Part shown: piece by piece, positions 1 through 26,995 of the stretch
How positions within the stretch are numbered: the stretch's first letter is position 1
Layout: each line of letters begins with the position of its first letter
DNA from: Liolophura sinensis
Taxonomy: Eukaryota > Mollusca > Polyplacophora > Chitonida > Chitonidae
Assembly: GCF_032854445.1 (NCBI RefSeq)
Contig: NC_088302.1
Location: 22,455,788-22,519,787, forward strand
Length of the DNA: 64,000 nucleotides
Direction: 5' to 3'
Notes under the pieces: generated by a model
What the model saw: the letters and a program-made list of their open reading frames with translations, nothing else
What the model was told of the DNA's origin: nothing
The model's database searches: none
Program-made: the position numbers and the translations under genes

Positions 1-502
1 CGTCTTCATTATTTTTTTTTTTCGGTTTTCCTTTAAACAGAAAATGACACTGGAAAATAATTTTTGTATGGTGGATATCTGGGACCACCTCTAGGCATAT
101 GTTGTCTTTTACAAACCTTGAACCCAGCGCTTTGTATACAAAGTGTTCAGTACAAGTTGAGGTTTACATTCAAATGTATTTATTACTTGAGTTTTTGTTC
201 AAACCTATAAATCATATGTTAACATCGGTGTACTTGATCCATTTATGATATCAGATGAAAAAACTGATTCCGTTGTCATTGCTGAACCATTGACAAAATC
301 TTTCCTTCACAGTTAATAAAGCTACACTCGCAACGAGTTTACTTTATAACATCACAGTATATAGAAAGCAAATTTAGGTAATTAAGCCCTTTTTAGCAGC
401 CCCAAAAGGTTGGTCTACACTACACCAGTTTATTTGGAACAAGTACTGTCTTGAGTCTTAATGTGCTGGACGTCAACCTAAGTTCTGATTTTCTGTCTAC
501 AG

Positions 503-2027
503 GCGTTCTACAATCTCACAAGTGGGAGAATGCCATGACGATTGACCGGAAGTCGTGGGGTTACCGCAGAGAGGCTCCCCTGGCTGATTACCTCAACATG
601 GACCATTTAACACAGCTTATGGCCGAGACGGTCAGGTAAGCAAGTGGAAGAGTAATTCCAAACTGATTGCTTGATTGATTAGTGTGTAACGCTGAGCTGA
701 AGAATATTCACTTATAAGACGGCGGTCAGGTTTATGGGTAAATAAAGCTGCTGTGCCCGGTGTAATCCACCAACCTTCATGATACACTTCCTGCCCCAAA
801 ATCCTTGCCCCCCTGACAGCTACAGTGAACCAACACCTTTGTTTTCCGGTCCACGCTGATTGACAATCATCAGTTCCACGCCTTTATTACCGTACCTTTC
901 TGTTCCACCTGTAAATGAGTTTAACTTTCTGCTTCACTTCTTATAGCAACTTTTTTTTATTTGTAATGATAAATTCATTATGATGTCCAGTTACACAGCT
1001 CAGAGTAACTTACTTTCTGTTTCCAGTTCTGACCGTAACTAATTGATAGTCATCAGTTACTTTTTTGTTATAATTCTGGAGGTAACTTTTACTTTCTGTC
1101 TCAGTTGTGATGGTAACTTTTACTTTCTGTTTCAGTTGTGGAGGTAACTTACTGATGAATATCGGTCCCACGCATGACGGTCGCATTGTTCCCATTTATG
1201 AGGAGAGACTCCGAGACATGGGAGCCTGGTTGAAGGTCAACGGCGAGGCGATCTATGGCACAAAGCCCTGGGCACATCAGAACGACTCTGTGACACCGGG
1301 AGTGTGGTAAGATTTACTTACTGTATTGGTTCTAAAGTAAGACAGAACATCCAATACTCATTCAGCTCGAATTACAGAACTCCACATCTGCCTGTATTAC
1401 ACCCTTAAACCCGACTTTCAAGTTATGCCAAATTATTACAACAAAGTAAAATATAATTGAACCCTGTGCCAAGTTGTATTTATTTTTTTCATTTCGTAAT
1501 GGGACTCAAACAACAAAATTGCACATTCATTGTGGGAAATTCGACATATCTGTTTACATTACACTTTTTAACAAGAGTTTCAAATAATATGACATTGTTG
1601 CAACAAATTAAATTAGTTCTCATTACTTTCATTTGGTAAAGGCATAGTGTTCTACATATAAGCAATTCATTTTCTAGCTTTTTATATAGAGAAAGAATAC
1701 AACACTAGACTCACGAAAATTTGAATCTCTATCACATTATTTGGTCAAAAATTACTGCTTGTATTTTACAGGTATACGTCCAAGATTGACATCACACAAA
1801 CCTTTGTCTACGCCATCTTCCTGGATTGGCCAGAGAAGGGTTCTCTTTTCTTACAAGATGTCTCTCCTAACTCTCAAACCAGAGTCACCTTGCTGGGATA
1901 TGAAGGAGAGTTTGATTGGCAGCCAGGAACTTCAGGGGGCATAACTGTTGAGATCCCGCCTATTCCTATAAATAGGATGCCGTGTAAATGGGCATGGACA
2001 TTAAAGTTCCAGAATCTTGTATTGTGA
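503..2027 (+). CDS. FUCA: Alpha-L-fucosidase (GH29), copy A, last three exons
   Basis: Partial gene; the 5' exons lie left of the window. Exons are 503-635, 1136-1306 and 1772-2027, each with AG acceptors and GT donors and open across the joins. They encode the catalytic-domain end (motifs [38 protein letters not shown]) and the C-terminal beta domain. GH29 enzymes remove alpha-L-fucose from glycoconjugates in lysosomes or secretions. Against copy B, all eight base differences in the first two of these exons are silent, whereas the five codon differences in the last exon all change the protein or the stop, including one extra C-terminal Leu before TGA. No frameshift or premature stop is seen, so this is probably a working paralogue. 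AATAAA lies about 107 bases past the stop. Confidence 0.88.
660..785 (-). mobile_element. SINE-like repeat, type D tail
   Basis: Minus-strand copy of a repeat whose plus-strand appearance runs from a GATTAGTGT-like start through TTCACTTATAAGACGGCGG to a TTTATGGG block. The same layout occurs at 22765, 39957 and 45600. It sits in fucosidase intron 6 of both duplication units, so it predates the duplication. Confidence 0.55.
880..1135 (+). repeat. Decayed tandem copies of the exon 7 splice junction, unit A
   Basis: The end of intron 6 contains several diverged copies of the intron-exon 7 boundary, each reading roughly TTACTTTCTGTTTCAG then TTGTGRNGGTAACTT. The nearest copy is 31 bases upstream of the true acceptor at 1134-1135. 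Another, near 1020, keeps the following ACTGATG-like bases of exon 7. These are acceptor-like decoys. Confidence 0.7.
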
Positions 2028-2133
2028 TTCTGCTTTAATACATGGTTTCCTGATGAACTTTATTGATCTTTTCGATGTTTTATTTAAATGTACTTTTCCT
2101 GTCAATATCTACCAGGTGTCTTTCTCGTCCTCT

Positions 2134-2139
2134 AATAAA
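2134..2139 (+). promoter_or_regulatory. Poly(A) signal for fucosidase copy A
   Basis: AATAAA about 107 bases downstream of the TGA stop. Confidence 0.5.
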
Positions 2140-2839
2140 CTTCAAAGACTAAATAGATGTTAAAATTTGGCGAATAGGGCGTTTAGGCTGAATCAAAAAT
2201 AAATATATAAATAAATGAGTAAATGTCACTTTTTTCTGTATTACCCTTTGAGTAGCGAAGTATTGTGCTAGAGGTTTCTTATATAAGTAATCCTACATGA
2301 CGAGGTGGTTCCTTCTGCGTTGGAGCTTACTACCTCTACCAATAACCCTGGCTACCATAATATAAGTAGTGTAAAGGAGTACGACACAAAGTGCATCGAG
2401 TTTAATATTCTGAAAGGATTGTTGTGGCCGCCGTTATACTTAACAATGCTACATCTATATGAAAGACACATATGTTAGGACATGATACCTTACGTGGTTG
2501 TCCACCCAGAATACGTTACCGGACAAATACATGGCTATACATCTGTAAAATGTAAAGCCCATCGAATGGGATTATTAAAAATGGTAATTTCGGTACAGAT
2601 TTGATTAGTATTGGTCACTCTTATGCAGTATAGAAATACATACTTTATTACGGTTCAACACTGTTCAAATTCGGATATATTTCTTTTAAAATAACAATAA
2701 GCAGTTTTTTCCAATAGTAAAATGCGTCTTCAGAATTAAAGCTGATTAATCAAATTCCTGGATGTATTCTTGATAGCTATAGTGCTTTCCAAGAAGTAAA
2801 ATCACGGATAGGTATATGTCGCTAAAGAGATTCTGAATT

Positions 2840-2990
2840 GAAAATGACACCCATGGAACAAGTACTTGTCAAGTACAAGTATAATATATAAAAACGACAC
2901 CCATAGAACAAGTACTTGTCAAGTACAAGTTTTATTGATGAAAATGACACCCATGGAACAAGTACTTGGCAAGTACAAGTATAATTAATT
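2840..2990 (+). repeat. Tandem repeat with internal palindrome
   Basis: Three copies of a unit of about 46-50 bp containing AATGACACCCATGGAACAAG followed by ACTTGTCAAGTACAAGT, whose ACTTG and CAAGT arms are self-complementary. Unit B keeps about one copy (13662-13705). Confidence 0.8.
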
Positions 2991-4602
2991 CATTCATTAA
3001 TAAGGAAGGGCTTTTCTGCAGTACTCTAACATACACGTACATGTGCTGGAAAGCCCACTTAAACAACATAGTGGCAAACATTACCACTAGCAATTTCACA
3101 GATTCAAACAAATTTTGACAGAGACTCCTCTGTTGTAATTGTACTCAAGTTTATTCCACTTATACATCAATAAGATGACTTGAGAAAGGAAGCCTGGGAA
3201 ACTGTCTGTAAAAGGTTTAGGATTTCCATCAAGAGCAATCTTCCAAACTGGATCTCTTGTCTCTATAAAGTCAATAAGTAATCATCCCTTCTGAATGACG
3301 GTCATTTCCCGGCCTCGTCAAGAGTTTGTCTGGACACACAGCTTATCCACTTAGGGGGACAGGTCTTTTGTCTTTCTTTGTTAACCGCCTTCTGAAACAA
3401 TGAAAGTTCCTCTCGTCATCAATGGCTGGTCTGCCCGCTTGCTCTCCATACATATCCACAAATGCATGTCGATTTTTCACCAACTTCTAAACCAGGGGAA
3501 GTTTCCTCGTCGTCAAGGTTATATTGGGTCACACACCCAGCAAGCCTATCCACCTGAAAGAAGGATGTTTTGCTGTATTTGTCATCACTGCCTTCAAGCA
3601 TATCCACTGTGAGTTATGCTCTCCAGTAAAGGGACCTCTCCAGTTCTATAGCTACTCTCCATATTCCTGGCTGTGTTTCATTACGGATCACGCTTTATAA
3701 ATGTAAAGAAGAAAAAGACCTGTAAAGAGAGAGGGTTTACATTTGTAGCATTTGAAGAAAGAAGAGATGAATTTGTAAAGTTTGAACTTTATTTCTAAAT
3801 GGTATCGTCGCAAGGCGTGGAATGGCAACAGGTCGGATTTCACTGGGTAGATATGACCACTGGCCAACTATCAGACTGTCTACGCTGCTCTGGTTCTACT
3901 ATTTATGTTTTAATCTTTTATACAGGATTATTCTAACTAATGGAGAACGGCAGCATGGATGAATTCTTGTGGAAGGCGCCCGCTCCAGAAGAAACCTTTG
4001 TCCAGCTGCCAGACCGTACTCACAAACGTCTTTACCTAAGTCCGAAGTCAAATCAAAAATATACCTTTCCAAAGTGAACCTTTGCCGTCTTTAAAATCTT
4101 ACCGATCACCTCTGGATGTAAAAAAAAACGTACTCACCTAGGCAGACAAAACCCGCCGTAGTTACAAACATCCAATCGTATCCAAGTAACGACTGCCTTT
4201 GGGATTTCAAAATGGCGCCGGCAACACCTGCTATACTCTAGAAAAAATTGTGCAATGATTATTTCTGGGATCCCTATTTACAGTAATTAGGCAAGAGGCG
4301 CTACATAATTGAGAATAATGGTTGTCTTCCTCTCCATAAAGATATTATCAAGGAACTCCAGTGTTTGATGCAAGCCATAATGCCACAGAAATGCATTATA
4401 TCCATGGCACGAACAGTATCTAATATGTCACCTATCGCAAAGTGAATTTTATATTTGTTTATCCATTTTACTGGTGTGTAACAGCGTTGTCCAGAACTTT
4501 TTTCATGAAGGTGGGCAGGAAACTGAAGTGCCCGAGGAAAACCACAGGCATTTGGATAGTTACTGGCATAGTAACTTTCCAACATGTGACTTACACGTAT
4601 AC

Positions 4603-4844
4603 TTAGCTCGCTAACGCAGTGTAATGACCCAGGAATCTCTCACCAATGCGGTCGCTGTGAGTTCAAGTCCAGCTCATGCTGGCTTCCTCTCCGGTCCTAC
4701 GTGGGAAAGTCTGGCAGCAACCTGCAGATGGTCGTGGGTTTCTCCCCGGGCTCTGCCCGGTTTCCACCCACCATAATGCTGGCCGCCGTCGTATAAGTGA
4801 AATATTCTGGAGTACAGCGTAAAATACCAATCAAATCAAATAAA
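4603..4844 (+). mobile_element. SINE type A, post-duplication insertion with 14-bp TSD
   Basis: A tRNA-derived SINE, 5'-truncated (it lacks the A box), with the B box GTTCAAGTCC and an AAATAAA-type tail. It is flanked by perfect 14-bp target duplications ACTTACACGTATAC at 4589-4602 and 4845-4858. Unit B has the empty site, with a single copy of the target at about 15557-15570. Confidence 0.93.
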
Positions 4845-4909
4845 ACTTACACGTATACATGTACAGATATGCTCACCTTAATGGAGGCATAAAAGTTGTG
4901 TATGTTAAA

Positions 4910-5256
4910 CGTTAGACAGTGCACACGGGCGTTAGACAGTGCAAAGGGGCGTTAGACTGTTCACACGGGCAATAGACGGTGCACACAGGCGTTAGATAGT
5001 GTACACGAGCGTTAGGCAGTGCAAACGGGCGATAGGAAATGCACACTGGCGATAGACAGTGCACACGAGCGTTAGACAGTGCACACGGGCGTTAGACTGT
5101 GCACACGGGCGCTAGACTGTTCACACGGGCAATAGACAGTGCACACGGGCGTTAGATAGTGTACACCGGCGTTAGGCAGTGCAAACGGGCGATAGGAAAT
5201 GCACACGGGCGATAGACAGTGCAAACGGGCGATAGACACTGTACACGGGCGTTGTC
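4910..5256 (+). repeat. 20-bp minisatellite, unit A
   Basis: About 17 copies of GCACACGGGCGTTAGACAGT with variants (GATAG, AAACGG). The matching array in unit B (15622-15925) lies in transporter intron 8 and has fewer, differently ordered variants. Confidence 0.92.
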
Positions 5257-5321
5257 GACCCCCTTTTGTTAAAAAAAAAACACAAGAACAATGGTACAGC
5301 TAGCAAACTGCCTGTCGAAGG

Positions 5322-5402
5322 TCGGGTTTGAAACCTCGACTCCTGTCTACTACCAATAGAAGAGCGAGCATCTTAACCACCTTAGCCACATGCTCCTTGC
5401 TC
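5322..5402 (-). repeat. tRNA-like SINE head
   Basis: Read on the minus strand there is an A-box-like TGGCTAAGGTGGTTAAGA and a B-box-like GGTTTCAAACC at tRNA-like spacing. The arms do not form a convincing tRNA, so it is a tRNA-derived repeat fragment. It is shared with unit B at 15985-16065. Confidence 0.55.
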
Positions 5403-6589
5403 CTTCAATATGTAGCATTTTAATTCAAACGATAAGAACTTTTCTGGCAGGAAACAAAAAGTAACCAATTTTCTACTTTCATTATGTTCGAACACTGATA
5501 CTTACATCTGCACTACACATCAATCCATAGTTTATGGTGTAATATTTGGAGGCAAAAGCTCGCGCCGTCTCCGAGGGTAACAGTGAGAAGGTTCCCGAGA
5601 AGGACAGAAAGATCAGGAAGACCCAGATAAAGAAGAAGGGTTTGCCGCCAAACGGCCAATATGAATACTGCGAGCGACGTACAGACGCTCAGCTGCGCCA
5701 CCTAGCGGAAAAATATAAACAAATATACCTGATCATCCTCGTCAGCACAGAGTTCAGATTTTCGGAACTTTTTAACCGATTTTGAACGGTAACACGGACA
5801 CAGACGAAGTTGATATTTTGAGAAAAGTAATTATTTTTACTACTGTAATATAAAACCAAGAAATCGCTCGAATGTGTGCAGATCGATTTTTTACCAGAAA
5901 TCTCCGTTACAGCCTCTTTAATGAAACCTGTTATATACAGAAATATGTTTTACCTTGAAACACGTTTTGTCACCAATATATCCCCAGAGTACTCGCCCTG
6001 CAGCGTTTCCCTCCGAGGGGAAGGCTCCGACATAAGCTAGAAATCTATCATCGTGGATGAACGTCTGAACATAAGCCTGCAAGAAAACAAGGTTAAGTTT
6101 GAATCTATAAAAAAGATATAGGAATATATATAGGGCTTATTTATTTGATGTATGTGATCAACTATATCTATGTATATATATTATCTCATATCAGACCAGT
6201 TTTTGCGTGTAAAATCCAAAGCATCCCGACCATAATCCACCGCTCTTCTCTAGACACCTGATAATCCTCCTGGCTGAAAGCTGCAGCAGAACCAGTGAAA
6301 GCTGAATTCAAGTCCGTGACTTTAGTGTACATGACCAAATAGGCGTGGACAAGACTAACGCTTTATGCGTATTGGTCAGCTGAATTTTAAGAATGCTGGG
6401 GGTCTATTGATTTAGCTGGTGATACCACTGTTTTGAGTGCAAATGTGTGCGCACGCACTGCATGGGTCAAACAAAAGAAAACATGGTCATTTATGCCTTT
6501 GCGACAGCCAAGGATTCAACTCAGTTCTAGGCTTGGTACATATTTTCTTCTTCAAGTTTTCGACTTGGTTTTTTTTGGTTAGACAGTTA

Positions 6590-6740
6590 TTTGATTGGTG
6601 TTTTACGCATACTTGAGAATATTTCACTTAAACAACAGTGACCAACATTATGATGGGAGGAAACCGGACAGAGCCTTGGGAAACCATTCCCATGTTGCTG
6701 GAAGACTTTCACACGTAGAGGAAGCCAGCATGACTAATTC
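6590..6740 (-). mobile_element. SINE type A fragment at the duplication boundary
   Basis: Minus-strand SINE containing GATTGGTGTTTTACGC and the GGGAGGAAACCGG core. Homology between units A and B stops inside it. It continues here to about 6740 but breaks off in unit B near 17376, which makes it the likely recombination site. Confidence 0.8.
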
Positions 6741-6884
6741 ATGCCACAGGTAACTCTACATACTTGAAGTGTTAAACCCATGGGTTACTCTTTAGAGCCA
6801 TGTGTTTGTTGTGGTTGTTGTTCTTGAAATACTAGGCTATGTCTTCTTTCTTTGTTAAGGAATGTTTTTACTACCAAATTATTT

Positions 6885-7022
6885 ATTTATTTATTTGATT
6901 GGTGTTCTCAAGAATATTTTATTTATACGACGGCGACCAGCATTATGGTGGGAGGAAACCGGTCAGAACCCGGGGAAAACCCACGAGCAGCCGCAGGTTC
7001 CTGCAGACCTTCCCACGTACCA
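6885..7022 (-). mobile_element. SINE type A fragment upstream of fucosidase copy B
   Basis: ATTTATTTATTTGATTGGTG start, internal deletion of the CGTACT block, then the GGTGGGAGGAAACCGG and CCTTCCCACGTAC core. It lies about 250 bp before the start codon of the complete fucosidase gene. Confidence 0.8.
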
Positions 7023-7277
7023 AATTGAATGTAAAGATTTATGACAATATTAGGTCGTTCACTCAACTTATTCAACGTAATTCAAAATGGCGTCACCTTC
7101 GGCCGAGATCGTGTATCGCGTGTGAAGTCACTCTCTGAGAATGTGTACCGAATGACAAAGCGCTTCGTGTGTCTCCGTATGACCTCGCCAAATACCGCCG
7201 CTGGCAGCCTGCTCACAAACTACACACGGCTCAACACTTTTGTCCATATCAGTCGCTCTTGACCGAGCTGAGAAGCA

Positions 7278-10200
7278 ATGGTTAAAGTCCTTTTCGCTAG
7301 CATCCCTATAGCCATCGGTTTCCTGTACATCTCAGGGGCAACGGCCGTTAAATACGAATCTAACTGGGCGTCATTAGATTCCCGCCCCTTACCCACCTGG
7401 TTTGATGAGGTGAAATTTGGGGTTTTTATCTGCTGGGGCGTTTACTCTGTGCCAAGCTATGGGTCACCGTGGTTCTGGTGGTACTGGAAGGGAGTTAAAT
7501 CACCAGCGTTCCAACAGTTTATGGAGAAGAATTATCCACCAGGCTTCACCTACGCAGATTTCGCTCCTCTCCTCAAGGCAGAGTTATTTGATCCAGATCA
7601 ATGGGCTGACATAATTGAGGCGTCAGGTGCCAAGTGAGTGAAAAACAAGGATTTAATGGGAAATCTTAGATAGTATCATGGGCTATCTGCTTAACAAAAT
7701 TGAGGTGAATTGTACAAAATGTATAGGCCAAATCGACCGATGGAATGAATGAACAAACGCTTGAAGTTTAGCGTCGTACTTAATTTTTCAGTCATATGAC
7801 GACGACGAGTCATGAGTTGTGTGTGTATATATTCCGTGTCTTCCATGACGACAAAGTGCTGCCACCAAGGAGGAATCAAGCTTGCCTAAGACACCAAACA
7901 TGACACCCCACCAATTCCCATTATATTGACACCATGTCAACCAATATCGTTTCCTTGCTCTAATCTATCCGTGCTGACAAGCAACAAGTACCATTTTTAA
8001 AGTCTTTGGTTTGGCCCAAACCGGCAGAAAACTCTGTCGTTCTTATAATGGGCATCTTTTCACTCTTTCGTTGTAACTTATACACAAGCCAACTTAAATT
8101 ATATCCTGAAAATTTTTTGATTCATGTGTTTTCATCCCATTACATCAGTCTGTACTAGCGATTGGCATTCGCGGTCCTAAAACTCCGTAAAGACTAATCG
8201 AAGTGTCCATGTTTTGTTTCAGATATGTGGTACTAACCACCAAACACCATGAGGGTTTCACTTTGTGGCCATCTGAGAATTCATGGAACTGGAATTCTGG
8301 GGATACCGGACCTCATCGGGACCTTGTCGGTAAGGAAGTATTCTTCAAAACGTCTCTGACGAACGCTTATTTCTTTACTTTTTACTAAACCCTTTTTCTA
8401 ACGATTTCTCTGTGATGAGTCACTCATACCTCTTTTGCATCTATCTTCAGAATTCTGCTGGTAAAGCCTCATTTCCTCACACATTAAACAACACGTTGAT
8501 CATTTCTTCACCTTTCTTCCACCAATCATTTCTTCACCTTTATGCCACCCATCATTTCTTCACCTTTACTCCACCAATCATTTCTTCATCTTCATTCCAC
8601 TGTCATTTCTGCACCTTTATTCCACCAATCATCTGTACACCTTTATTCTACCAATCATTTCTACACCTTAATTCCACCAAAGTGTCAGATTATCCCAACC
8701 CCAGAGGATTTCATAAAATTTTATCAAAATCTCAAACTCAAGGTATTAGTTAAACTTGATATGTGTTTTGATGTATTTTGTTTGACAGATTATTAATGCT
8801 GCCTATGAACAGTGTTGAATGACTGTCTATTTTACGTACAGGTGATCTTGCCACCGCCATTCGTAGAAAGCCTGGCATACATTATGGTGTGTATCACTCC
8901 ATGTTTGAATGGTTCAACCCGCTGTACCTTCAAGACAAAGCCAACAACTTCACAACTAATGAATTTGTTAAGGTGGGTAGTTTTGTAACTACACTTGTGG
9001 GAATGTGTTTAGATAGATTGTTAGTGATACCCCAATTTCTTTAGGCCAATTTTTGTCATTTTTTTCCAGAATTGGTTTTCTTCATATATTTGATCTCTGT
9101 TTTAACGCCACGCGTGAATTTCTCTTACACGAAGGGGACTATTTTTTGGGTGGGGTAAAATGGGCAGTACCGGAGAAATCATTGCCCTTCGTCAAGTGTG
9201 CCAGAAAAACCTCTTGCTGCATACTCAGCCATTGCTAGATTCGACGTCACCGAGAACTGCAAGAGCACCACCATTACTTCATGAAATATTTCATACTAGA
9301 CGTCCCTAGATGTCCCTAGATGTAGGACATGTCAAATTGATTGACCCCATTTATGGTGACCTGGCCAAAAAGTCACTAAACACCTGTATTGTCTGGTTTA
9401 TCTATAAAGAGATAAAACATTGTCTATGTTCATGTCGTGTTATCAGTAAAAACCTGTTTCAGCAGAGAAATACAAGTCTGACACATCAACTTTTAGCTTA
9501 AGCTGCATATTTCGTCAAGTTATTTAAAAATGTCGAGAATGGTTGAAGATAGTTTCTCTCTGATGGTTTATTAAAGTAACGATTCTCTGAGGAGATAAGA
9601 GTACGGTTATATAACTATTGGTGAAACCAGCATCATTTTGTCTTGAACACACACAAAACACTTGTGTTGTATGAAAAAGGCATGTTAATATCAGCGTCAA
9701 GTCCGACATTCCTATACCATTCGTAGTCCGTAAAGGGCGTTCCAAGTCGATAATCGCAAGATCCATTTCCACAACAACGTTTAACACTAACTCCCGAAGA
9801 CAAAGGTGTCTAAGAAATTATGCAAATAAGAAAAAAAGCCGGTAACACACAAGACAGAAGCGGTCATCAGTTTTCAATGATGCCGGGCAGACAATGAATA
9901 TTCCAGGCATGAATTCCATATCAAAGTTCAGATGTTAAGGCATAGACTTGTTTGTGTAGGGGTAAGACATTTGTGTGCTGAATGAAACAACACGTTGTTG
10001 TGTTAGACTTCAACAGAAGTGTTTTTTGAGTGAAGAATATCCTTCCTCGCAGCAATATTTACAGCAATGTCGTTGTTTGTACACTTTCACACCTTTAAGT
10101 TGATAAACTTAGGATTTACCGTCTCTTTAGGCAATGCTTGATGTCATTGTTTAAGTCATAACAAAATAACATCACATGTACGTCGCGATGAGTATAGACA

Positions 10201-13200
10201 CCAGGAGGGTAACTTTTGTAGTTGTCATTATTTTGTTTTATTTTTCATTTCAGACAAAGACAATGCCGGAGTTGTACGATCTGGTCAACAGATACAAACC
10301 GGAAGTGATTTATTCCGATGGCGACTGGGAGGCACCGGATACTTACTGGAACTCAACCGGGTTTTTAGCCTGGCTCTATAATGACAGGTAGCAACTTGAC
10401 ATCGTGTTTAAGAACCCTTCTGTAATAGCAGATATCTGTTGTGGTACCATAAAACGGTTCTATAACAAGGGATTTATGCCGAACTCAAGAATATTTTACT
10501 TACACTAGCACCATTAAGGTATTTCTAACAAGAAAACAGTCTTTTAGAATTATGCTTTAGTAACGGGAAGACCAAAAACAGACAATCATGAAATGAAGTT
10601 TATAAGCTGGAGCTGCGGCTGCCGTCAGTTCAAGTCCAGCTCATGCTGGCTTCCTCTCCGGCCGTATGTGGGAATGCCTTCCAGCGGATGGTCGTTTGTT
10701 TTTCCCAGGCTCTGCCCGGTTTCCTCCCACCATAATGCTGGTCGCCGTCGTATAAGTGAAATATTCTTGAGTACAGGATAAAATACCAATCAATGAATAA
10801 ATAACTAAATAAGCTGGAATAATTATTTTTCATTTCAAAATACAGAACTTCAGGTAAACTATCGTTCGCTGGTGATCAGATTCTTGACGCAAATACAACC
10901 TCATGTATGTAGATGTACGTTTCAATGTTTGGGGTTCACAAATTATGTACACAATGTTATATTTACGCTCACCTTCCTCTTGGAATCTGCCACACTATAT
11001 TTTACAGCCCGGTGAAGGATACAGTGGCTGTAAATGACAGGTGGGGGAATGGTACGTCCTGTCGACATGGAGGATACTATGACTGTATGGACAGATATTC
11101 TCCAGGTAAGATAAACATTATATATTCAGAGCTCAAAAGTAGAACCGAAAACGTGTAAAACTTTGATATTTTAAAGCATACCAAATTAAATGTTGTTTCT
11201 GGTTGGAATGTTGTTGTTCATACTTGTGACTTGGTTTCTGGTTAGGGTATTGTTGTTCGTACTGGCGAATTGGTTTCTGGTTTGAACGCTATTGTTCATA
11301 TTTGGCGAACAAGTTTCTGGTTTGAATACTCTTGCTGACATCTGATCCACATATCTGATGCGTAAAAGCATATAACTGAATGAGTATTGTTAAAGGTGGA
11401 AAAACGTGAAAATTACATAAAGTTCAGAAGAAAGAGGGCAAAAAGTTAGTTGTGGATCTGTTCTGCATTATTTTTTTTCGGTTTTCCTTTAAACAGAAAA
11501 TGACACTGGAAAATAATTTTTATATGTTGGATATCTGGGACCACCTCTAAGCATATATTGTCTTTTACAAACCTTGAACCCGGCGCTTTGTATGCAAAGT
11601 GTTCAGAACAAATTGAGGTTTACATTCAAATGTATTTATTACTTGAGTTTTTGTTCAAACCTATAAATCATATGTTACCATCGGTCTACTTGATCCACTT
11701 ATGATATCAGATGAAAAAACTGATTCCGTTGTCATTGCTGAACCATTGACAAAATCTGTCCTTCACAGTTAATAAAGCTACACTCGCAACGAGTTTACTT
11801 TATTATATAACGGTATATTAAAAGCAAATGTCGGGAATTACTGTCTCCAGCTCTTTTTAGCAGCCCTAAAAGTTTGGTCTACACTACACCAGTTTATTTG
11901 GAACAAGTACTGTCTTGAGTCTTAATGTGCTGGACGTCAGCCTAAGTTCTGATTTTCTGTCTACAGGCGTACTACAATCTCACAAGTGGGAGAATGCCAT
12001 GACGATTGACCGGAAGTCGTGGGGTTACCGCAGAGAGGCTCCCCTGGCTGATTACCTCAACATGGACCATTTAACACAGCTTATGGCCGAGACGGTCAGG
12101 TGAGCAAGTGGAAGAGTAATTCCAAACTGATTGCTCGATTGATTAGTGTTTAACGCCGAGGTGAAGAATATTCACTTATAAGACGGCGGTCAAGTTTATG
12201 GGTAAATGAAGCTGTTGTGCCCGGTGTAATCCACCAACCTTCCTGACAATCTTCCTGCCCCAAAAACCGTGCCCCCCTGACAGCTACAGTGAACCAACGC
12301 CTTTGTTTTCCGGTCCAGGCTGATTGACAATCATCAGTTCCACGCCTTTATTACCGTACCTTTCTGTTTCACTTGTGAAAGAAACTAACTTTCTGCTTCA
12401 CTTCTTATATTAACTTTTTTCCTGTTTGTAATGGTAAATTCATTATGATGTCCAGTTACACAGCTCAGAGTAACTTACTTTCTGTTTCCAGTTCTGACCG
12501 TAACTAACTGATGGTCATCAGTTACTTTTTTGTTTTAATTCTGGAGGTAACTTTTACTTTCTGTCTCAGTTGTGATGGTAACTTTTACTTTCTGTTTCAG
12601 TTGTGGCGGTAACTTACTGATGAATATCGGCCCCACACACGACGGTCGCATTGTTCCCATCTATGAGGAGCGACTCCGAGACATGGGAGCCTGGTTGAAG
12701 GTCAACGGCGAGGCGATCTATGGCACAAAACCCTGGGCACATCAGAACGACTCTGTGACACCGGGAGTGTGGTAAGATTTACTTACTGTATTGGTTGTAA
12801 AGTAAGACAGAACATCCAATACTCATTTAGCTCGAATTACAGAACTCCACATCTGCCTGTATTACACCCTTAAACCCGACTTTCAAGTTATGCCAAATTA
12901 TTACAACAAATTAAAATATAATTGAACCCTGTGCCAAGTTGTATTTATTTTTTTCATTTCGTAATGGGACTCAAACAACAAAATTGCACATTCATTGCGG
13001 GAAATTCGACATATCTGTTTACATTACACTTTTTAACAAGAGTTTCAAATAATATGACATTGTTGCAAGAAATTGAATTAGTTCTCATTACTTTCATTTG
13101 GTATAGGCATAGTGTTCTACATATAAGCAATTCATTTTCTAGCTTTTTATATAGAGAAAGAATACAACACTAGACTCACGAAAATTTGAATCTCTATCAC

Positions 13201-13489
13201 ATTATTTGGTCAAAAATTACTGCTTGTATTTTACAGGTATACGTCCAAGATTGACATCACACAAACCTTTGTCTACGCCATCTTCCTGGATTGGCCAGAG
13301 AAGGAATCTCTTTTCTTACAAGATGTCTCTCCTAACTCTCAAACCAGAATCACCTTGCTGGGATATGACGGAGAGTTTGATTGGCAGCCAGGAACTTTAG
13401 GGGGCATAACTGTTGAGATCCCGCCTATTCCTATAAATAGGATGCCGTGTAAATGGGCATGGACATTAAAGTTCCAGAATCTTGTATAG
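7278..13489 (+). CDS. FUCA: Alpha-L-fucosidase (GH29), copy B, complete
   Basis: Complete 8-exon gene of 460 codons: 7278-7633, 8223-8329, 8842-8972, 10254-10387, 11008-11105, 11967-12099, 12601-12771 and 13237-13489. All joins are GT/AG and keep frame. The length matches animal FUCA1/FUCA2 (about 460-470). Residues 1-23 form a signal peptide. YEPNW-like [46 protein letters not shown] and WNWNSGD mark the catalytic barrel. Asp220 in YSDGDW aligns with the known nucleophile of the family. The acid/base is either Asp in GYYDCMD or Glu284 in HKWEN; published assignments for the human enzyme differ. N-glycosylation sequons are NFT, NST and NGT. The enzyme hydrolyses terminal alpha-L-fucose in lysosomes or secretions. 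It is convergent with the transporter at 14860-23190, and AATAAA follows at 13530. Confidence 0.95.
7780..8012 (-). mobile_element. SINE type C fragment
   Basis: Minus-strand copy in fucosidase intron 1, recognised by CAGTCATATGACGACGACGA, a CACCAAACATGACACC block and a GTTTCCTTGCTCTAA block. It shares order and spacing with copies at 35996, 45785, 58115 and 59435. Confidence 0.7.
8485..8690 (+). repeat. Pyrimidine-rich tandem repeat in intron 2
   Basis: Seven or so diverged units of about 27-28 bp containing CCACCAATCATTTCTTCACC. The weak open frames here come from the repeat and are not genes. Confidence 0.8.
10610..10806 (+). mobile_element. SINE type A, 5'-truncated
   Basis: B box GTTCAAGTCC, CTCATGCTGGCTTCCTCTCC, a CTCTGCCCGGTTTCC core and an AATAAATAACTAAATAA tail. 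It lies in fucosidase intron 4. Confidence 0.88.
11195..11335 (+). repeat. Tandem repeat in fucosidase intron 5
   Basis: Three diverged units of about 43 bp, each with TTGTTCATACT-like and GGTTTCTGGTT blocks. Confidence 0.75.
12127..12250 (-). mobile_element. SINE-like repeat, type D tail, unit B copy
   Basis: Sister of the copy at 660-785 in intron 6, with the same GATTAGTGT start and ACGGCGGTCAAGTTTATGGG block. Confidence 0.55.
12355..12600 (+). repeat. Decayed tandem copies of the exon 7 splice junction, unit B
   Basis: Same ladder as at 880-1135. The nearest decoy acceptor ends at 12569, 31 bases before exon 7. Its use would shift the frame and reach a TAA within 15 codons. A further copy near 12490 reads GTTCTGACCGTAACTAACTG, which resembles the exon 7 start GTTGTGGCGGTAACTTACTG. 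Confidence 0.75.
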
Positions 13490-13529
13490 TGATTCTGCTT
13501 TAATACATGGTTTCCTATGTAAATGAGTA

Positions 13530-13535
13530 AATAAA
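13530..13535 (+). promoter_or_regulatory. Poly(A) signal for fucosidase copy B
   Basis: AATAAA about 41 bases after the TAG stop. Relative to copy A, roughly 150 bp of 3' UTR are missing here, which places this signal much closer to the stop. Confidence 0.5.
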
Positions 13536-14744
13536 TGAGTAAATGTCACTTTTTTCTGTATATCTAATGGATTTTCACTTTACCCTTTGAGTAACCAAGT
13601 ATTGTGCTAGAGGTTTCTTATATAAGTAAGCCTACATGACGAGGTAGTACAAGTATAATTGATGAAAATGACACCCATGGAACAAGTACTTGACAAGTAC
13701 AAGTATAATTCATTTATTCATTAATAAGGACGGGCTTTTCTGCAGTACTCTAACATACATGTACATGTGCTGGAAAGCCCACTTAAACAACATAGTGGCA
13801 AACATTACCACTAGCAATTTCACAGATTCAAACAAATTTGGACTGAGACTCATCTGTATATCTTTCTTGTAATTGTACTCAAGTTTATTCCACTTATACA
13901 TCAATAAGAAGATTTGAGAGAAGAAGCCTGGAAAATCACAGGCTTCGCCTAGACAAGGTCGACGATGTAGAATGCCAGCAGGGTAAATCCTTTACCAAGA
14001 TGCATAGATGACAAAATACTGTTTTTTCCTCGACTAATATCAATTCATATTTATCCTAATAAACTGACAACTCCACATGTTACTCTAAATAGATCCATTG
14101 AACGGTAGTCCTCTTAATCCATTTAAACGGTAACTTAACTGTCTGTAAAATGTTTCGGATTTCCAAGAAGAACAATCTTCCAAACTGGATCTCTTGTCTC
14201 TATAAAGTCTGTTGGTAATTATCCCTTCTGAATGACGGCCATTTCGCCTCCTGGTCAAGAGTTTGTCTGGACACACAGCTTATCCACTTAGGGGAACAGG
14301 TCTTTGTCTTTCTTTGTTAACCGCCTTCTGAAAGAATGAAAGTTCTTCTCGTCATCAATGGCTGGTCTGCCCGCTTGCTCTCCATACATATTCACAAATG
14401 CATGTTGATTTTTCACCAACTTCTAAACCAGGGGAAGTTCCCTCGTCGTCAAGGTTATATTGGGTCACACACCCAGCAATCCCATTAACCTGAAAGGAGG
14501 GTGTTTTGCAGCATTTGTCATCACTGCCTTCTGATTCATTGACACATTATTTAAGCATATTCACTGTGAGTGATGGTCTCCAGTAAAGGGACCTCTCCAT
14601 TTCTATAGCTACTCTCCATATTCCTGGCTGTGTTTCATTACGGATCTCGGTTTGTAAACATAAAGAAGAAAAAGCCCTGAAAAGAGAGAGGATTTGCATT
14701 TGTAGCATTTGAAGAAAGAAGAGATGAATTTGTAAAGTTTGAAC

Positions 14745-14750
14745 TTTATT
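14745..14750 (-). promoter_or_regulatory. Poly(A) signal for the MFS transporter
   Basis: AATAAA on the minus strand about 110 bases downstream of the proposed TAA stop at 14860-14862. It supports the choice of terminal exon. Confidence 0.5.
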
Positions 14751-14859
14751 TCTAAATGGTATCGTCGCAAGGCGTGGATTGGCAACAGGTCGGATTTCAC
14801 TAGGTAGATATGACCATTGGCCAACTATCAGACTGTCTACGCTGCTCTGGTTCTACTAT

Positions 14860-17800
14860 TTACGTTTTAATTTTTTTACACAGGATTATTCTAACTAATG
14901 GAGAACGGCAGCAAGGATGAATTCGTGTGGAAGGCGCCCGCTCCAGAAGAAACCTTTGTCCTGCTGCCAGACCGTGCTCACAAACGTCTTTACCTAAATC
15001 CGAAGTCAGATCAAAAATGGATAAGGTAATCTTTACCGTTGTTAAAATCTTTCCGATCACCTCTGGATCTAAAAAAAAACGTACTCACCTAGGCAGACGA
15101 CACCCGCCGTAGTTACAAACATCCAATCGTATCCAAGTAACGACTGTAGTTGGGATGGCAAAATGGCGCCGGCAACACCTGCTATACTCTAGAAAAAATT
15201 GTGCAATGATTATTTCTGGGATCCATATTTACAATTATTAGGCAAGAGGCGCTACATTATTGAGAATAATGGTTCTGTTCCTCTCCATAAAGATATGTCA
15301 AGGAACTCCAATGTTTGATGCAAGCCATAATGCCACAGACATGTATTATGTCCATGGCACGAATAGTATCTAATATGTCACTTATCGTAAAGTGTATTTT
15401 ATATTTGTTTGTCCATTTTATTGGTGTTTGACACCAATAAAATGGTGTTTGACACCGTTGTCCAGAACTTTTATCATATGAAGGACGGCAGGAAAACGAA
15501 GTGCCCGAGGAAAACCGCAGACATTTGGATAGATACTGGCAAACTTTCCAACATGTGACTTACACGTATACATGTACAGATATGCTCACCTTAATGGAGG
15601 CATAAAAGTTGTGTACTTTAAACGTTAGACAGTGCACACGGGCGTTAGACAGTGCACACGGGCGTTAGACTGTGCACACAGGCGACAGACAATGCAAATG
15701 GACGACAGACAGTGCAAACGGACGTTAGGCAGTGCAAACGGTCGATAGGCAATACACACGGGCGATGTACAGTGCACACGGGCGTTAGACAGTGCACACG
15801 GGCTTTAGACAGTGCACACGGGCGTTAGTGCACACTGGCGATAGACAGTGCAAGCTGACGTTAGGCAGTGTAAACGGGTGACACGCAATGTACACGGGCG
15901 ATAGACGGTGCACACGGGCGTTGTCAACCCCCTTTTGTTTAAAAAAAAACACACAAGAATAATGGAGCAGGTATCAAACTCCCTGTCGAAGGTCGGGTTT
16001 GAAACCTCAACTCATGTTTCCTGGTGATTGAAAAGCGTGCATTTTAACCACCTTAGCTACATGTCCCTCGCTTCAAAATGTAGCATCTAAACTCAAACCT
16101 TAAGAACTTTTCCGGCTGGTAACAAAAAGTAACTAATTTTCAAGTTTCATTATGTTCAAACACTGATACTTACATCTGCACTACACATCAATCCATAGTT
16201 TATGGTGTAATATTTGGAGCCAAAAGCTCGCGCCGTCTCCGCGGGTAACAGTGAGAAGGTTCCCGAGAAGGACAGAAAGATCAGAAAGACCCAGATAAAG
16301 AAGAAGGGTTTGCCGCCAAACGGGGTGAACACCAAGGTCAGTATGAATACTGCGAGCGACGTACAGACGCTCAGCTGCGCCACCTAGCGGAAAATACAAA
16401 CAAATATACCTGATCATCGATGTTAGCACAGAGTTCAAATTTTAGGCGCCTTGTTACGGATTTTGAACGGTAACACGGACACAGACGAAGTTGATATTTT
16501 GAGGAACGTAATTATTTTTACTATTCTAATATAAAACCGAGAAATCGACAGAATCTGTGTAGATCGATTTTTTACCAGAAATCTCCGTTATAGCCTCTTT
16601 GATGAAACTGTTACATACGGAAATATGTTTTACCTTGAAAGAGGTTTTGTCACCAATATATCCCCAGAGTACTCGCCCTGCAGCGTTTCCCACCGAGGAG
16701 AAGGCTCCGACATAAGCTAGAAATCTATCATCGTGGATGAACGTCTGACCATAGGCCTACAAGGAAAACAAGGTTAAGTTTGAATCTATGTAAAAACATA
16801 TAGGAATACAACGTTATTTTAGCCTTATCGTGACGATTGAATATATAGGGCTTATTTATTTGATGTATGTGCTCAACTATATCTATGTATATATATTATC
16901 TCATATCAGACCAGTTTATGCGTGTAGAAACCGAAGCATCCCGACCATAATCCAACGCTCTTCTCTAGACACCTGATAATCCTCCTGGCTGAAAGCTGCA
17001 GCAGAACCAGTGAAAGCTGAATTCAAGTTTGTAACGTTAGTGTACATGACCAAATAGGCTGGGACAAGAACAACGCTTTATGCGTATTGGTCAGCTGAAT
17101 TTTAAGAATACTGGGAGTCTATGGATTTAGCTGCTGATACCACTGTTTTGAGTGCAAATGCGTGCGCACGCACTGTATGGGTCAAACAAAAGAAAACATG
17201 GTCGTTTATGCCTATGCGACAGTCAAGGAATCAGCTCAGTTCTAGGCTTGGTACTTGTTTTTTCTTCAAGTTGTCGACTTGGGTTTTTTTAGTTAGACAG
17301 TTATTTGATTGGCGTTTTACGCGTACTTGAGAATATTTCACTTAATCAACAGTGACCAGCATTATGGTGGGAGGAAACCGGACAAAACATGGTGGAAACA
17401 TTTATTTATACATTAAACAAATATTTAAATAAGTGTCACGACATTCACTGAAATGTGTTTGATTGTCCTGTATTATTATACTTCAACGCAGGGGCAATTT
17501 CCGTTGTTTATCCACCACCAGATACCCGGATGTGTCACGCGCACTTGAAGCCGCAATTTGGCTTACGAGCATAATCATACTGACGAGACAGTAGATTTGA
17601 AGCAGAAATGGATAAAAACGACTTCGGATCAGTATGACTGGATGATAAGGTTTGCGAGAGTTAAAACGCAAACGTGAGAATATTTATTTTTATATAGTTA
17701 AAAACGTAAATGATACCATTTTTTGAGCATCGGCAGTAAAATTCAATATTTATTCTTATCTATTATATATATTATTATATGGAGCCTAAGAAATCTCTTA

Positions 17801-20800
17801 GCAAATGCCCTCACCTTCCACAATGACGATACAAACACTATTGCTTGTTCTATAGACAGTAACATCAACCACAGATTGTAGAATGCCCATGTCTTCAACA
17901 TTGCTGATGGTTTGAACTCTCTCTGGACTGTTTCTCTGTGATCACCTCTGTAAAGTCAAAGTTTGTACAACCTCAGAAAAAGGCTTGTATGTGGAATAAT
18001 TACACGCTGGTTTCTGTAATGGAGGTGAATATTTAAAATAAGAAACACCACGGTTTATAACGTAGGAAAATGAAATACTCTCGAATCTGTGATCACATTT
18101 TACACAATATTTACAGTCATACTGCTGAAAATGAAAACCAATGAGGATCCTTTCAATTCGCAGACTGGTATAGATGTAATATAGAAAGTGGATTTGTAAG
18201 TAACACTATTATCGTTACTAGGGAAGAGCACAGATTCTGGTGCTGAAAACTGGCTGAGATTATTGCGGGTTTCGAACCACCGACCTCAGTCTGGCACCAG
18301 ATCGCCAGCAGTACATGTCAACCGTCCAGACAACTAGTCATCGTCAAGTCTACCGGTCAACTACCTTCTGCCTGGGAAGCCTGTTGGCCGAGTTGCCTAG
18401 ACGGTTGACATGTACTGATGGCGATTTGGTGCCTGACTGAGGTCGGTGGTTCGAAACCCTCAATAATCTCAGCCAGTTTTCAGCACTAGAATCTGTACTA
18501 TTCCCTAATAACGATAACACTGTTACTTAAAAATTGACTCTCTAAATCTATCGGTCGTAGCTATTTCCTACATGTACCTGGGAGACCTGTTGGTCGAGTG
18601 CTCTAGACGGTTGACATGTATTGCTGGCGATCTGAGGTCGCCGGTTCAAAACTCGCAGTGGTCTCAGCCAATTTTCAGCACTAGAATCTGTGCTGTATTC
18701 AGAAAGTGTAACCCTAATAACGATAATACTGTTACTTTCAATTCTCGCCTAAATTATTCGGACCAAAGCTGTGTGGTTCATTCTTCATTCCTACCTTTGC
18801 GATAACGATATGTACAAATTGGTCAAGTATATGTATACTCAAGTACTGCAAGAGAACAATGGCCAATCCAGCTTGGACCCGAGTCGCCATTGCGCGGGAA
18901 AATGAGCCCCATTATTGCTGCTTCTGCTTACGATGTATTCAGTATATACATATCAAGGCTGATAACCATATCCACGTTTGTTGTTTCATCTAAGCAAATA
19001 AATACTCACTTGGACAATTCTCTGTTTATACTCACTACACCTTCTAATTTGTCTACACTTTCTTTCACAGATATTTCTTCCTCCTGTGCAAATAAAAACT
19101 GTTTGTTCAAGCAGCTCTGCTGGAGAATGCTAAAATTGTTAGTGTTCGTTATAATTTATTGTCATTAAATCATTTACAATATTATTTGTTTAATTCAGAT
19201 CCTAAGGTGCGTCGACTTAAAGGAGAAGAAAACATAAAAAAGATGCCAAAATCAGATGAAAGAGCGTCAAAACTTATTTGCAAAAATATAGGGAACTTTT
19301 TTTTCAAGAGAAAAGGGTATTTGAAAATATTGTTGTATAATGGGTTTTTGGTTCCAACTTTTGGTATTTATCGTTGTTGCCTAATAATGTTCTAAATAAG
19401 GATATGATGCTTGTCTAATAAATTTATTTGATTGTCAAATTATTTTTTATATCGAAACATATACATTTAACCTAAATTATGATAATACATGTATTTATGA
19501 ACATATTAAAAATATAAATATGATCCAAATTGAGGTTTAATACATTTGTTACCTGAAAAGAGCGAATTCTAGTGCAAAAATATTTATTAAACCTGTGTTA
19601 CATCCTCATTTAGGACATTATTAAACAAAGACTATAAATACCAAAAGGTGGTCTCAAATACCCACCATACAAAAATTATTAACAGGTGCCTTTTTCTCTT
19701 TAAGGAAAAATTGGAAAAAGAAAGACAAGAGTTAGGAATAACTTTTCGCGCTCTTTCATCTGAACTTTATGTCATTTTTATGTTTTCTCCACCTTTAATA
19801 TATAGAATGAATGCATCTGAAATATCTATATTGCTGTATATTTGCTGGCTTGGGTTTCCCCATTGAAACCGTATGCGTCCACAATATTACAATATACGGG
19901 AGGGTGGTGAGTGTTACACGTGGGAACTTTGATAGTGGGTGTAAATGTAAGTGTGGCGTCAATGCATATGTAGATGAATTTGAGAAATGAGAACGCTGTT
20001 AATGTGCGTGTGAAAAAAGCCGATGTGTGCAAAATGTGAGAACTTACACATAGTAAACTATATGGACATGCAGGAGGTGAATTTACTTGATTTATTTCTT
20101 TGGTTTTACCAACAGATAAAAACTAACAGAGTAAATTTATGTGTAGGTACATGTATGAACAAAATATGCGAACTTAAGAAGTGGATGTGTTCAAAATCTG
20201 AGAACTTACGTAATGGGTGTGCGTAAAATGTGAGAACTTGTGTAACAAGTGTTAACTGTATCACAGAGGTTAGGACTATATTGTAAATGGTGAGAACACA
20301 TGTTAAGTGCTTCGAAGAGGTTAGGACTATATGGTTAGTGGTTAGAATACGTAGTAAGTGAACGGACGAGATTGGGACAGCATGGTTATTGGTGAGAACA
20401 CGTGGTAAGTGTACGGAAGAGGTTAATACTACATGGTTAATGGTGAGAACACGTAGTGAGAGTACGGAAGAGGTTAATACTACATGGTTAATGGTGAGAA
20501 CACGTAGTGAGAGTACGGAAGAGGTTAAGACTACAGGGTTGGTTAAGATTACATTGTTAGTGGTCAGAACAGGTGATAAGCGTACGGAAGAGGTTAATAC
20601 TACATGGTTAATGGTGAGAAAACGTGATAAGCGTACGGAAGAGGTTAGGGCTACATGGTTAATGGTGAGAACACGTGATAAGTGTACGGAAGAGGTTGGG
20701 ATTACTCGGTTAATGGTGAGAACACGTGAACAAGGTAAGTGTGGAAGAGACAAGAACTTACATAGTAGGTGTAGCCAGGTGGATTTGTCATCATTATGAC

Positions 20801-25484: not shown

Positions 25485-26995
25485 CACTCTTCAAAAAAAG
25501 AAACGCAAAATGAAATTCAAAAATGATACTTACAATTTTGTACACATATATTAACTCAAACAGTTTTTGTAGGGTTGCACATTGTTACTGGAATGTTTCA
25601 GAAGATCATCCTTGACCAAACGCAACCAAAAATGATTTTGAACGGTTTTATCAATTAGGATTGTTATGATGTGCGTTGATGTCGTGCAGCACGAAGTTCA
25701 GGCACAATGATTGTTTGTCACGTGCAAAACATGAGTACGCTATGTGACTATAAAAGACCCAAACGAATCTCACAATTTTATCCAATATATTTGCAAGTAC
25801 TGTACGTGAAAATGGGACGTCTCAACGCTGCCGGCCGAAATCAGGCAATTGGACGATTGCAAGCTGGCGAATCAAAGAGTGAGGTGGCAAGGATCTTCAA
25901 CGTTCATCCCAGCACAATAACTCGGTTTTGGGATCGATTTCGTCAAACAAATTTGACAAATGACCGTCCAAGATCAGGAAGACCTAGAGTCACCACACCT
26001 GCCCAAGATCGGTACATCTGGGTAACCCACCTACGTGACCGACATCGTACCGCCCGGGACACAGCACAAGAACAGTTTGGAGCCTGAAGAGTGTCCGATC
26101 AGACAATCTGGAACTGTCTCCGAGAAGTAGGAATACCTGCCAAACGTCCAAAAGTTGACCCCTCCTTGACACGACTACATCGACGTCGACGAGTGAGATG
26201 GTGTACCACGGTGCTGCCATGGAACCTGGCAAACTGGAGGCGCATATGGTTTAGCCATGAATCCCGTTATCTCCTCAGGCGACGTGATGGTAGAGACCGT
26301 GTCTGCAGACGACGTCATGAACGTTTTGCTCCTCACTGCATCAGACAGGTGGACAGATTCGGTGGAGGGAGTGTTATGGTGTGGGGAGCGATCTCATACG
26401 CCAGCAGATCGGAGCTTGTGTCCAAGGCAACCTGACGGCCAATCGATACGTCCGATTCTCCGCCCGTTCGTCCTTCGCCTTGTTGACCTTCAACGGCAGC
26501 TCTTCCAAACAGGACAACGCCAGGCCCCACACAGCACGTGCCACCGTGGACTACCTGGCTAATAATAACATCAATGGCCCTCCAAATCCCCGGATCTAAA
26601 CCCAATCGAACACCTTTGGGATCAGATCGATAAACGGGTGCGTCGACGTCGTATTCCACCACAGAATCTTCAACAGTTGTTCCACATGCTGCAGGAGGAA
26701 TGGAGAAGGATTCCACAACAAAACATGCAACGACTGATTCGATCTGTACCCAGGAAGTGTCGGGCAGTGGTAGCAGCTGCAGGTGGTCATACGAGATACT
26801 GATTTCAACACCACCTGGTGGACAGCAGTAATGACTGCGATGACTGTTATTCTCATGAAATATGGACAACATAGCAATGCATTGCTCCACAAAATTTCAT
26901 TTATGTATTTTTGTTTTCCGCTGATCTACACGTCCTTGAATAACATCAAATTTACATTGATATTTGGGTTTTGCGTTTCTTTTTTTTGAAGAGTG
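25485..26995 (+). mobile_element. Tc1/mariner-type transposon, inactive
   Basis: Terminal inverted repeats CACTCTTCAAAAAAAGAAAC at the left and GTTTCTTTTTTTTGAAGAGTG-like at the right (the reverse complement with one extra A/T), followed inward by GCAAAA. TA dinucleotides flank both ends (25483-25484 and 26996-26997), as expected for Tc1/mariner insertion. The 1511-bp length fits a full-length element with one decayed transposase gene. Confidence 0.93.
25812..26802 (+). pseudogene. Tc1-like transposase, broken
   Basis: Begins MGRLNAAGRNQAIGRLQAGE with an N-terminal paired-type helix-turn-helix (SKSEVARIFNVHPSTITRFW) and a GRPRVT hook. An in-frame TGA at 26085-26087 interrupts it. Reading resumes in the same frame (VSDQTIWNCLREVGIPAKRP) to GGGSVMVWGAIS. 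Near 26400 it slips frame (QDNARPHTARATVDYLANNN), and again near 26580 (SPDLNPIEHLWDQI) to a C-terminus ending in GGHTRY. At least one stop and two frameshifts make it non-functional. The product family cuts and pastes DNA by a DDE-type mechanism. Confidence 0.92.

Follow-up and report, generated by a model that had tools for sequence, protein, structure and literature searches.

SINE-mediated duplication and a probable later paralog exchange in a fucosidase-transporter array of the chiton Liolophura sinensis

A stretch of the 609-Mb genome of Liolophura sinensis carries two closely similar copies of a fucosidase gene, one followed by a complete transporter gene and the other by its 3′ end only, and the question raised by this locus is how such an arrangement came about. 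The stretch analyzed (C8:22455788-22519787; hereinafter referred to as the window) is 64,000 nucleotides long. Positions are given in window numbering, negative values lying to the left of the window (genome position = window position + 22455787), and the analysis covered the window and 50 kb of its left flank, 114 kb together. The original prediction attributed the arrangement to unequal crossing-over between two SINEs, one located in intron 6 of the transporter and the other upstream of the fucosidase; this event would have copied the fucosidase and broken the transporter. This SINE model proved right in its essentials, and the interpretation as a whole was partly supported: the SINE-mediated duplicate stood, but the number of units did not, as there are three, with a second event located left of the window.

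Layout of the array

Comparison of the window with itself gave three collinear, same-strand alignments, pairing 11-2051 with 11467-13516 (95.8% identity), 3200-4602 with 14137-15571 (89%), and 4845-6684 with 15558-17399 (86%). The two units named A and B in the original prediction were in this way confirmed as collinear duplicates at 86-96% identity, and unit A was found to continue rightward into the upstream region of fucosidase copy B, as had been claimed. Once the left flank was added, the array consisted of three units, each with one fucosidase (F1 to F3), and the window cuts through it. A more divergent fucosidase (F0) was located left of F1. There were no gaps in the assembly over the 114 kb. 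The array was very probably built in two steps, that is, a SINE-joined duplication followed by an exchange between paralogs. The features of the locus are listed in Table 1.

Table 1. Features of the fucosidase-transporter array in window numbering.
Feature	Position	Strand	Remarks
Fucosidase F0	-26283..-18911		more divergent, left of F1
SINE L	-16599..-16445	-	left parent SINE, left of F1
Fucosidase F1	-15892..-9589		
Fucosidase F2	-4338..2027	+	3′ part in window (1..2027), 5′ part from -4338
F2 exons 6-8	503-635, 1136-1306, 1772-2027	+	
Transporter fragment T2	3200..6672	-	pseudogene of exons 7-10, from the 3′ end to intron 6
SINE in T1 and T2	4603..4844	+	inserted after first duplication; 14-bp target-site duplication ACTTACACGTATAC; T3 site empty
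SINE J	6587..6733	-	chimeric junction SINE; second copy of same junction at -5029..-4883
Parent-switch interval	6658..6672	.	15 bp; intron-6 SINE to fucosidase-upstream SINE
Retained fucosidase upstream DNA	6673..7277	+	original, about 0.6 kb, in F3 (also F2); holds older SINE 6881-7020
Fucosidase F3	7278..13492	+	8 exons, GH29, 460 aa, intact
F3 exons 1-4	7278-7633, 8223-8329, 8842-8972, 10254-10387	+	
F3 exons 5-8	11008-11105, 11967-12099, 12601-12771, 13237-13492	+	
SINE in F3 intron 4	10612..10811	+	absent from F1 and F2
MFS transporter T3	14895..23190	-	full length, 10 exons, intact
T3 exons 1-5	23190-23055, 22648-22462, 21923-21797, 21392-21247, 20888-20762	-	
T3 exons 6-10	17922-17815, 16756-16634, 16383-16174, 15188-15089, 14993-14895	-	last exon tentative
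SINE R	17301..17399	-	right parent SINE, transporter intron 6, partial element

F1, F2, and F3 each comprised 8 exons with open frames of 463, 461, and 460 aa, respectively, and F1 and F2 differed at 7 aligned residues. Both domains expected of the family, PF01120 (GH29) and PF16757 (C-terminal), were identified in the open frames of F2 and F3, and the nearest solved structure to F3 was human FUCA1 (E = 2e-182). Among the three copies, dN was about 0.01 and dS 0.05-0.09 (dN/dS about 0.11-0.14), and this low dN relative to dS indicates that F1-F3 are under purifying selection. A tandem repeat was observed in intron 5 of F1 and F2 (about -12368 to -11886 and -675 to -118) and was largely missing from F3.

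The full-length transporter T3 contained an MFS domain (PF07690, MFS_1; E = 1.1e-11), and its distant solved relatives were an oxalate:formate antiporter and an L-lactate transporter. The frame was open through exons 1-9, with AG/GT at the splice sites; exon 10, which allows two reading frames, is tentative. The fragments T1 and T2 consisted of exons 7-10 only. The same 14 bp were missing from exon 8 in both fragments, shifting the frame, and the remaining differences in exons 7 and 9 were mostly amino acid-changing. No transporter remains were found in the left flank beyond T1. Since T3 is intact and T1 and T2 are frameshifted, the duplication left the gene whole and added only a dead 3′ fragment; the original prediction of a broken transporter was in this respect mistaken.

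Several other repeats were observed. A 20-bp minisatellite lay in the intron that separates transporter exons 8 and 9 (4910-5253 and 15623-15922), and its arrangement in the fragment differed from that in the full gene. Another short repeat, dispersed and possibly a MITE, was found at 11390-11565 (fucosidase intron 5), 19627-19798 (transporter intron 5), and 42723-43069, the first two copies being mutually inverted. In addition, an open frame at 25680-26087 resembled by eye the beginning of a transposase of the Tc1/mariner type (MGRLNAAGRNQAIGRLQAGESKSEVARIFNVHPSTITRFWDRF...).

A chimeric SINE at the junction

The homology between units A and B ended inside a SINE, in agreement with the original prediction. 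The last unit B-specific match was at 6657/17371, and the shared tract extended to 6672/17386, within the junction SINE (J) and the SINE of transporter intron 6 (R), respectively. Extension of the sequence to the left placed the other breakpoint at -16520 to -16506 (C8:22439267-22439281), inside a same-orientation copy of the junction's SINE family (L) rather than in unique sequence; this left parent had the place, orientation, and register predicted for the SINE upstream of the fucosidase. L, J, and R were all antisense and mutually in register. Over its left arm, J showed 5 differences from R in 65 bases and 16 from L in 62 bases; over its right arm it showed 4 from L in 62 bases, and R was almost without similarity in this part. 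The correspondence extended outside the SINE, where J matched R on the left (89%) and L on the right (94-96% over the main pieces); three unique-flank negative controls in the comparison of J, L, and R gave no match. The switch sequence was AGGAAACCGGACA[A/G]A (6658-6672), over which L and R are identical throughout and J has one private change. A SINE chimera at the junction, the test that had been named beforehand, was therefore present, with a change of parents within 15 bp. For random breakpoint pairs in the 114 kb, the probability that both fall in SINEs of one orientation and no more than 8 bp out of register was 9.5e-5.

Because the left breakpoint lies in an in-register SINE and the junction SINE is chimeric, the tandem duplication is supported as SINE-mediated. 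The breakpoint in intron 6 also explains why unit A has no transporter exons other than 7-10. In terms of the features that define homologous-type TE-mediated events, both breakpoints were in same-family, same-orientation SINE copies, and the in-register chimera overlapped its parents in a stretch of identity shared by both. Restoration of a full-length element is hardly applicable here because both parent SINEs are themselves partial; the junction element corresponded to positions 93-256 of a 274-bp reference copy, and a full-length element was not restored.

The second SINE reported upstream of fucosidase copy B was located at 6881-7020 and was rejected as a breakpoint. It was also found left of F1 and is therefore older than the duplication.

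With regard to a possible tRNA-like head of the SINE, A-box- and B-box-like stretches were recognized by eye in the fullest copy. A search of Rfam with the SINE head (29400-29760) gave no match, and the literature on molluscan SINEs contained no direct match to the junction-type element.

The first step may be pictured as follows. The ancestor would have carried the left SINE, a fucosidase, and a transporter with a same-orientation SINE in its intron 6. These two SINEs would have recombined or been joined by repair, in register and within the 15 identical bases, to yield the order F1, exons 10 to 7 of the transporter, chimeric SINE, F3, and full transporter, and F3 would have retained about 0.6 kb of the original upstream DNA. 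The junction displays the product of this step; as to the route, crossing-over appears about as likely as microhomology repair or template switching.

Classical non-allelic crossing-over between SINEs on misaligned chromosomes, as originally proposed, would agree with the same orientation and register of the SINEs, the chimeric element, and the absence of filler, and human TE-mediated events with such chimeras have been classed as homologous (PMC9675761). However, the parent SINEs L and R today overlap by about 100 bp at 74-76% similarity (about 25% diverged), with the 15 bp of identity at the edge of this similarity, which falls short of the long tract of near-identity used as the criterion for NAHR, and hence unequal crossing-over is only one candidate route. 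In reporter cells, Alu pairs differing by 15-30% were repaired mostly by other routes, with a shift to end joining (PMC4356517). In each SINE arm, about 7% of the divergence seen today postdates the first step, and the parents were therefore more alike at the time of the event; we regard crossing-over as quite possible, its chance falling a little short of even. An even chance is given to microhomology repair or MMBIR-like replicative template switching, with the similarity of the SINEs as the guide. Either of these would suit the shortness of the identity tract and its place at the margin of a repeat that is partial and diverged; replicative template switching has been proposed for TE-flanked duplications (PMC9675761), and microhomology repair can yield in-register chimeras with short homology (PMC4356517). 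Nevertheless, an in-register join free of filler and of extra template jumps is equally expected from crossing-over, and one junction cannot separate the two routes.

Origin of the middle unit

T1 and T2 diverged by about 0.4%. The frameshift and the SINE insertion are common to both, and the corresponding T3 site is empty; thus, the first step preceded the decay and the insertion, and the second step followed them. After the first duplication, the transporter fragment would have decayed and gained the further SINE. The middle unit would have been added afterwards by unequal exchange within exon 1 of two fucosidase paralogs, leaving a chimeric F2 with an F3-type start and F1-type remainder as well as a second copy of the SINE junction, and the likeness of F2 to F3 near exon 8 would be due to subsequent conversion.

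We infer this second step from the pattern of informative sites in F2. From the junction to -4036, 34 sites were F3-like and 1 was F1-like, and from -4015 onward the sites were mostly F1-like; the best switch, at -4036/-4015, lay within exon 1 and was not equalled in any of 10000 shuffles. Comparison of the block -14044 to -4202 with -2350 to 7414 gave a divergence of 0.4-0.7%, except for 600 bp near exon 8 in which F2 resembles F3. Over the 1.85 kb past the switch, F2 was 3.4% diverged from F1 and still further from F3. This zone would need an exchange between diverged alleles or an extra conversion, and probably counts against a simple form of the second step. A genome search for an outside donor of the zone returned the three known copies and a dispersed repeat only. 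One exchange between diverged haplotypes, together with conversion near exon 8, could cover the pattern.

The 1.85-kb zone, being older than its surroundings, could also mean that the third unit is old and that recent conversion or unequal exchange homogenized about 9.8 kb, in which case the second step would not have been one exchange. This is possible, although we rather doubt it: it requires a homogenized tract of 9.8 kb, the change from F3-like to F1-like sites is sharp, and a single exchange between diverged haplotypes fits as well. That the middle unit is an assembly artefact of two haplotypes is very improbable, because F2 is a paralog chimera and the 114 kb are gapless. Units 1 and 2 do look allele-like, with 99.3-99.6% identity over most of their length, but F2, with its F3-type flank and exon 1 and F1-type remainder, is an allele of neither, and an artefact would require a misjoin between paralogs about 5% apart. 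Even then, the first step would be untouched, since the same junction also lies directly left of F3. A first duplication joined through SINEs, followed by an exchange between paralogs, accordingly remains the preferred reading of the array.

Pocket residues and the wider setting

The aspartates aligned with the catalytic nucleophile (D225) and the acid/base (D276) of FUCA1 were both kept in F1-F3; the roles of these two residues in FUCA1 have been described (PMC9548408). Variants near the sugar pocket were found in exons 1-2 (7278-8329 in F3). The Glu of the SEWFWW motif was kept in F0 and F1 and was Pro in F2 and F3, and the Glu following the His-His pair of KHHEGF was kept in F0 and F3 and was Gly in F1 and F2. 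The His of the FIHWG motif, which presumably contacts fucose, was present in FUCA1 and F0 and was Cys in F1-F3. The SEWFWW Glu is taken as the putative counterpart of Thermotoga Glu66, at a place where the Thermotoga chain aligns with gaps; Glu66 is a pocket residue that varies in scallop fucosidases too (PMC5159873). An exchange in exon 1 would thus have brought together in F2 a Pro at the putative Glu66 position and a Gly in KHHEGF, a pairing that is new. Judged from the alignments, an effect of the re-paired variants on function is suggestive only, and it is unlikely that F1-F3 gained a new substrate specificity or a non-catalytic role via the SINE duplication and exon-1 exchange. All three fucosidases are intact, and so the lasting effect would be extra fucosidase genes with re-paired pocket variants.

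Further GH29 clusters were located on C1 and C6. The C6 fucosidase array (39148001-39356000) was built of units mostly 30-40 kb long and mainly 97-99% identical. At the right-hand end of its unit homology, the end covered by the comparison (C6:39341635), the junction was sharp and plain and no junction-type SINE was present within 1.1 kb; SINE mediation is therefore not general but one route among others.

The first step resembles human TE-mediated rearrangements, above all Alu/Alu events, in that the breakpoints lie in same-orientation copies of one SINE family, the chimeric element is in register with identity at the switch, and copies were gained after the first event (PMC9675761). In contrast to the Alu/Alu events, the SINE here is not a primate element and its parent copies overlap by only about 100 bp, the unit of about 11 kb holds a whole gene, the event is old, and the exchange between paralogs came later. 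The array also resembles the molluscan GH29 expansion in its lineage-specific duplication and in lost conservation at the putative counterpart of Thermotoga Glu66 (PMC5159873); that work drew on phylogeny and protein data, whereas here the DNA junction of one duplication was resolved.

Unequal exchange between tandem paralogs gives rise to chimeric genes. F2, which begins like F3 and continues like F1, shows no essential difference from such genes, except that its zone of older divergence does not match one clean exchange between identical chromosomes.

As this type of event is well known, the worth of the locus is as a clean worked example of gene-family growth. The origin of one copy in an expanded enzyme family was resolved to 15 bases, with both parents and the recombinant SINE side by side, and the first duplication, made by repeats, would have set the stage for a paralog exchange that mixed variants near the active site.
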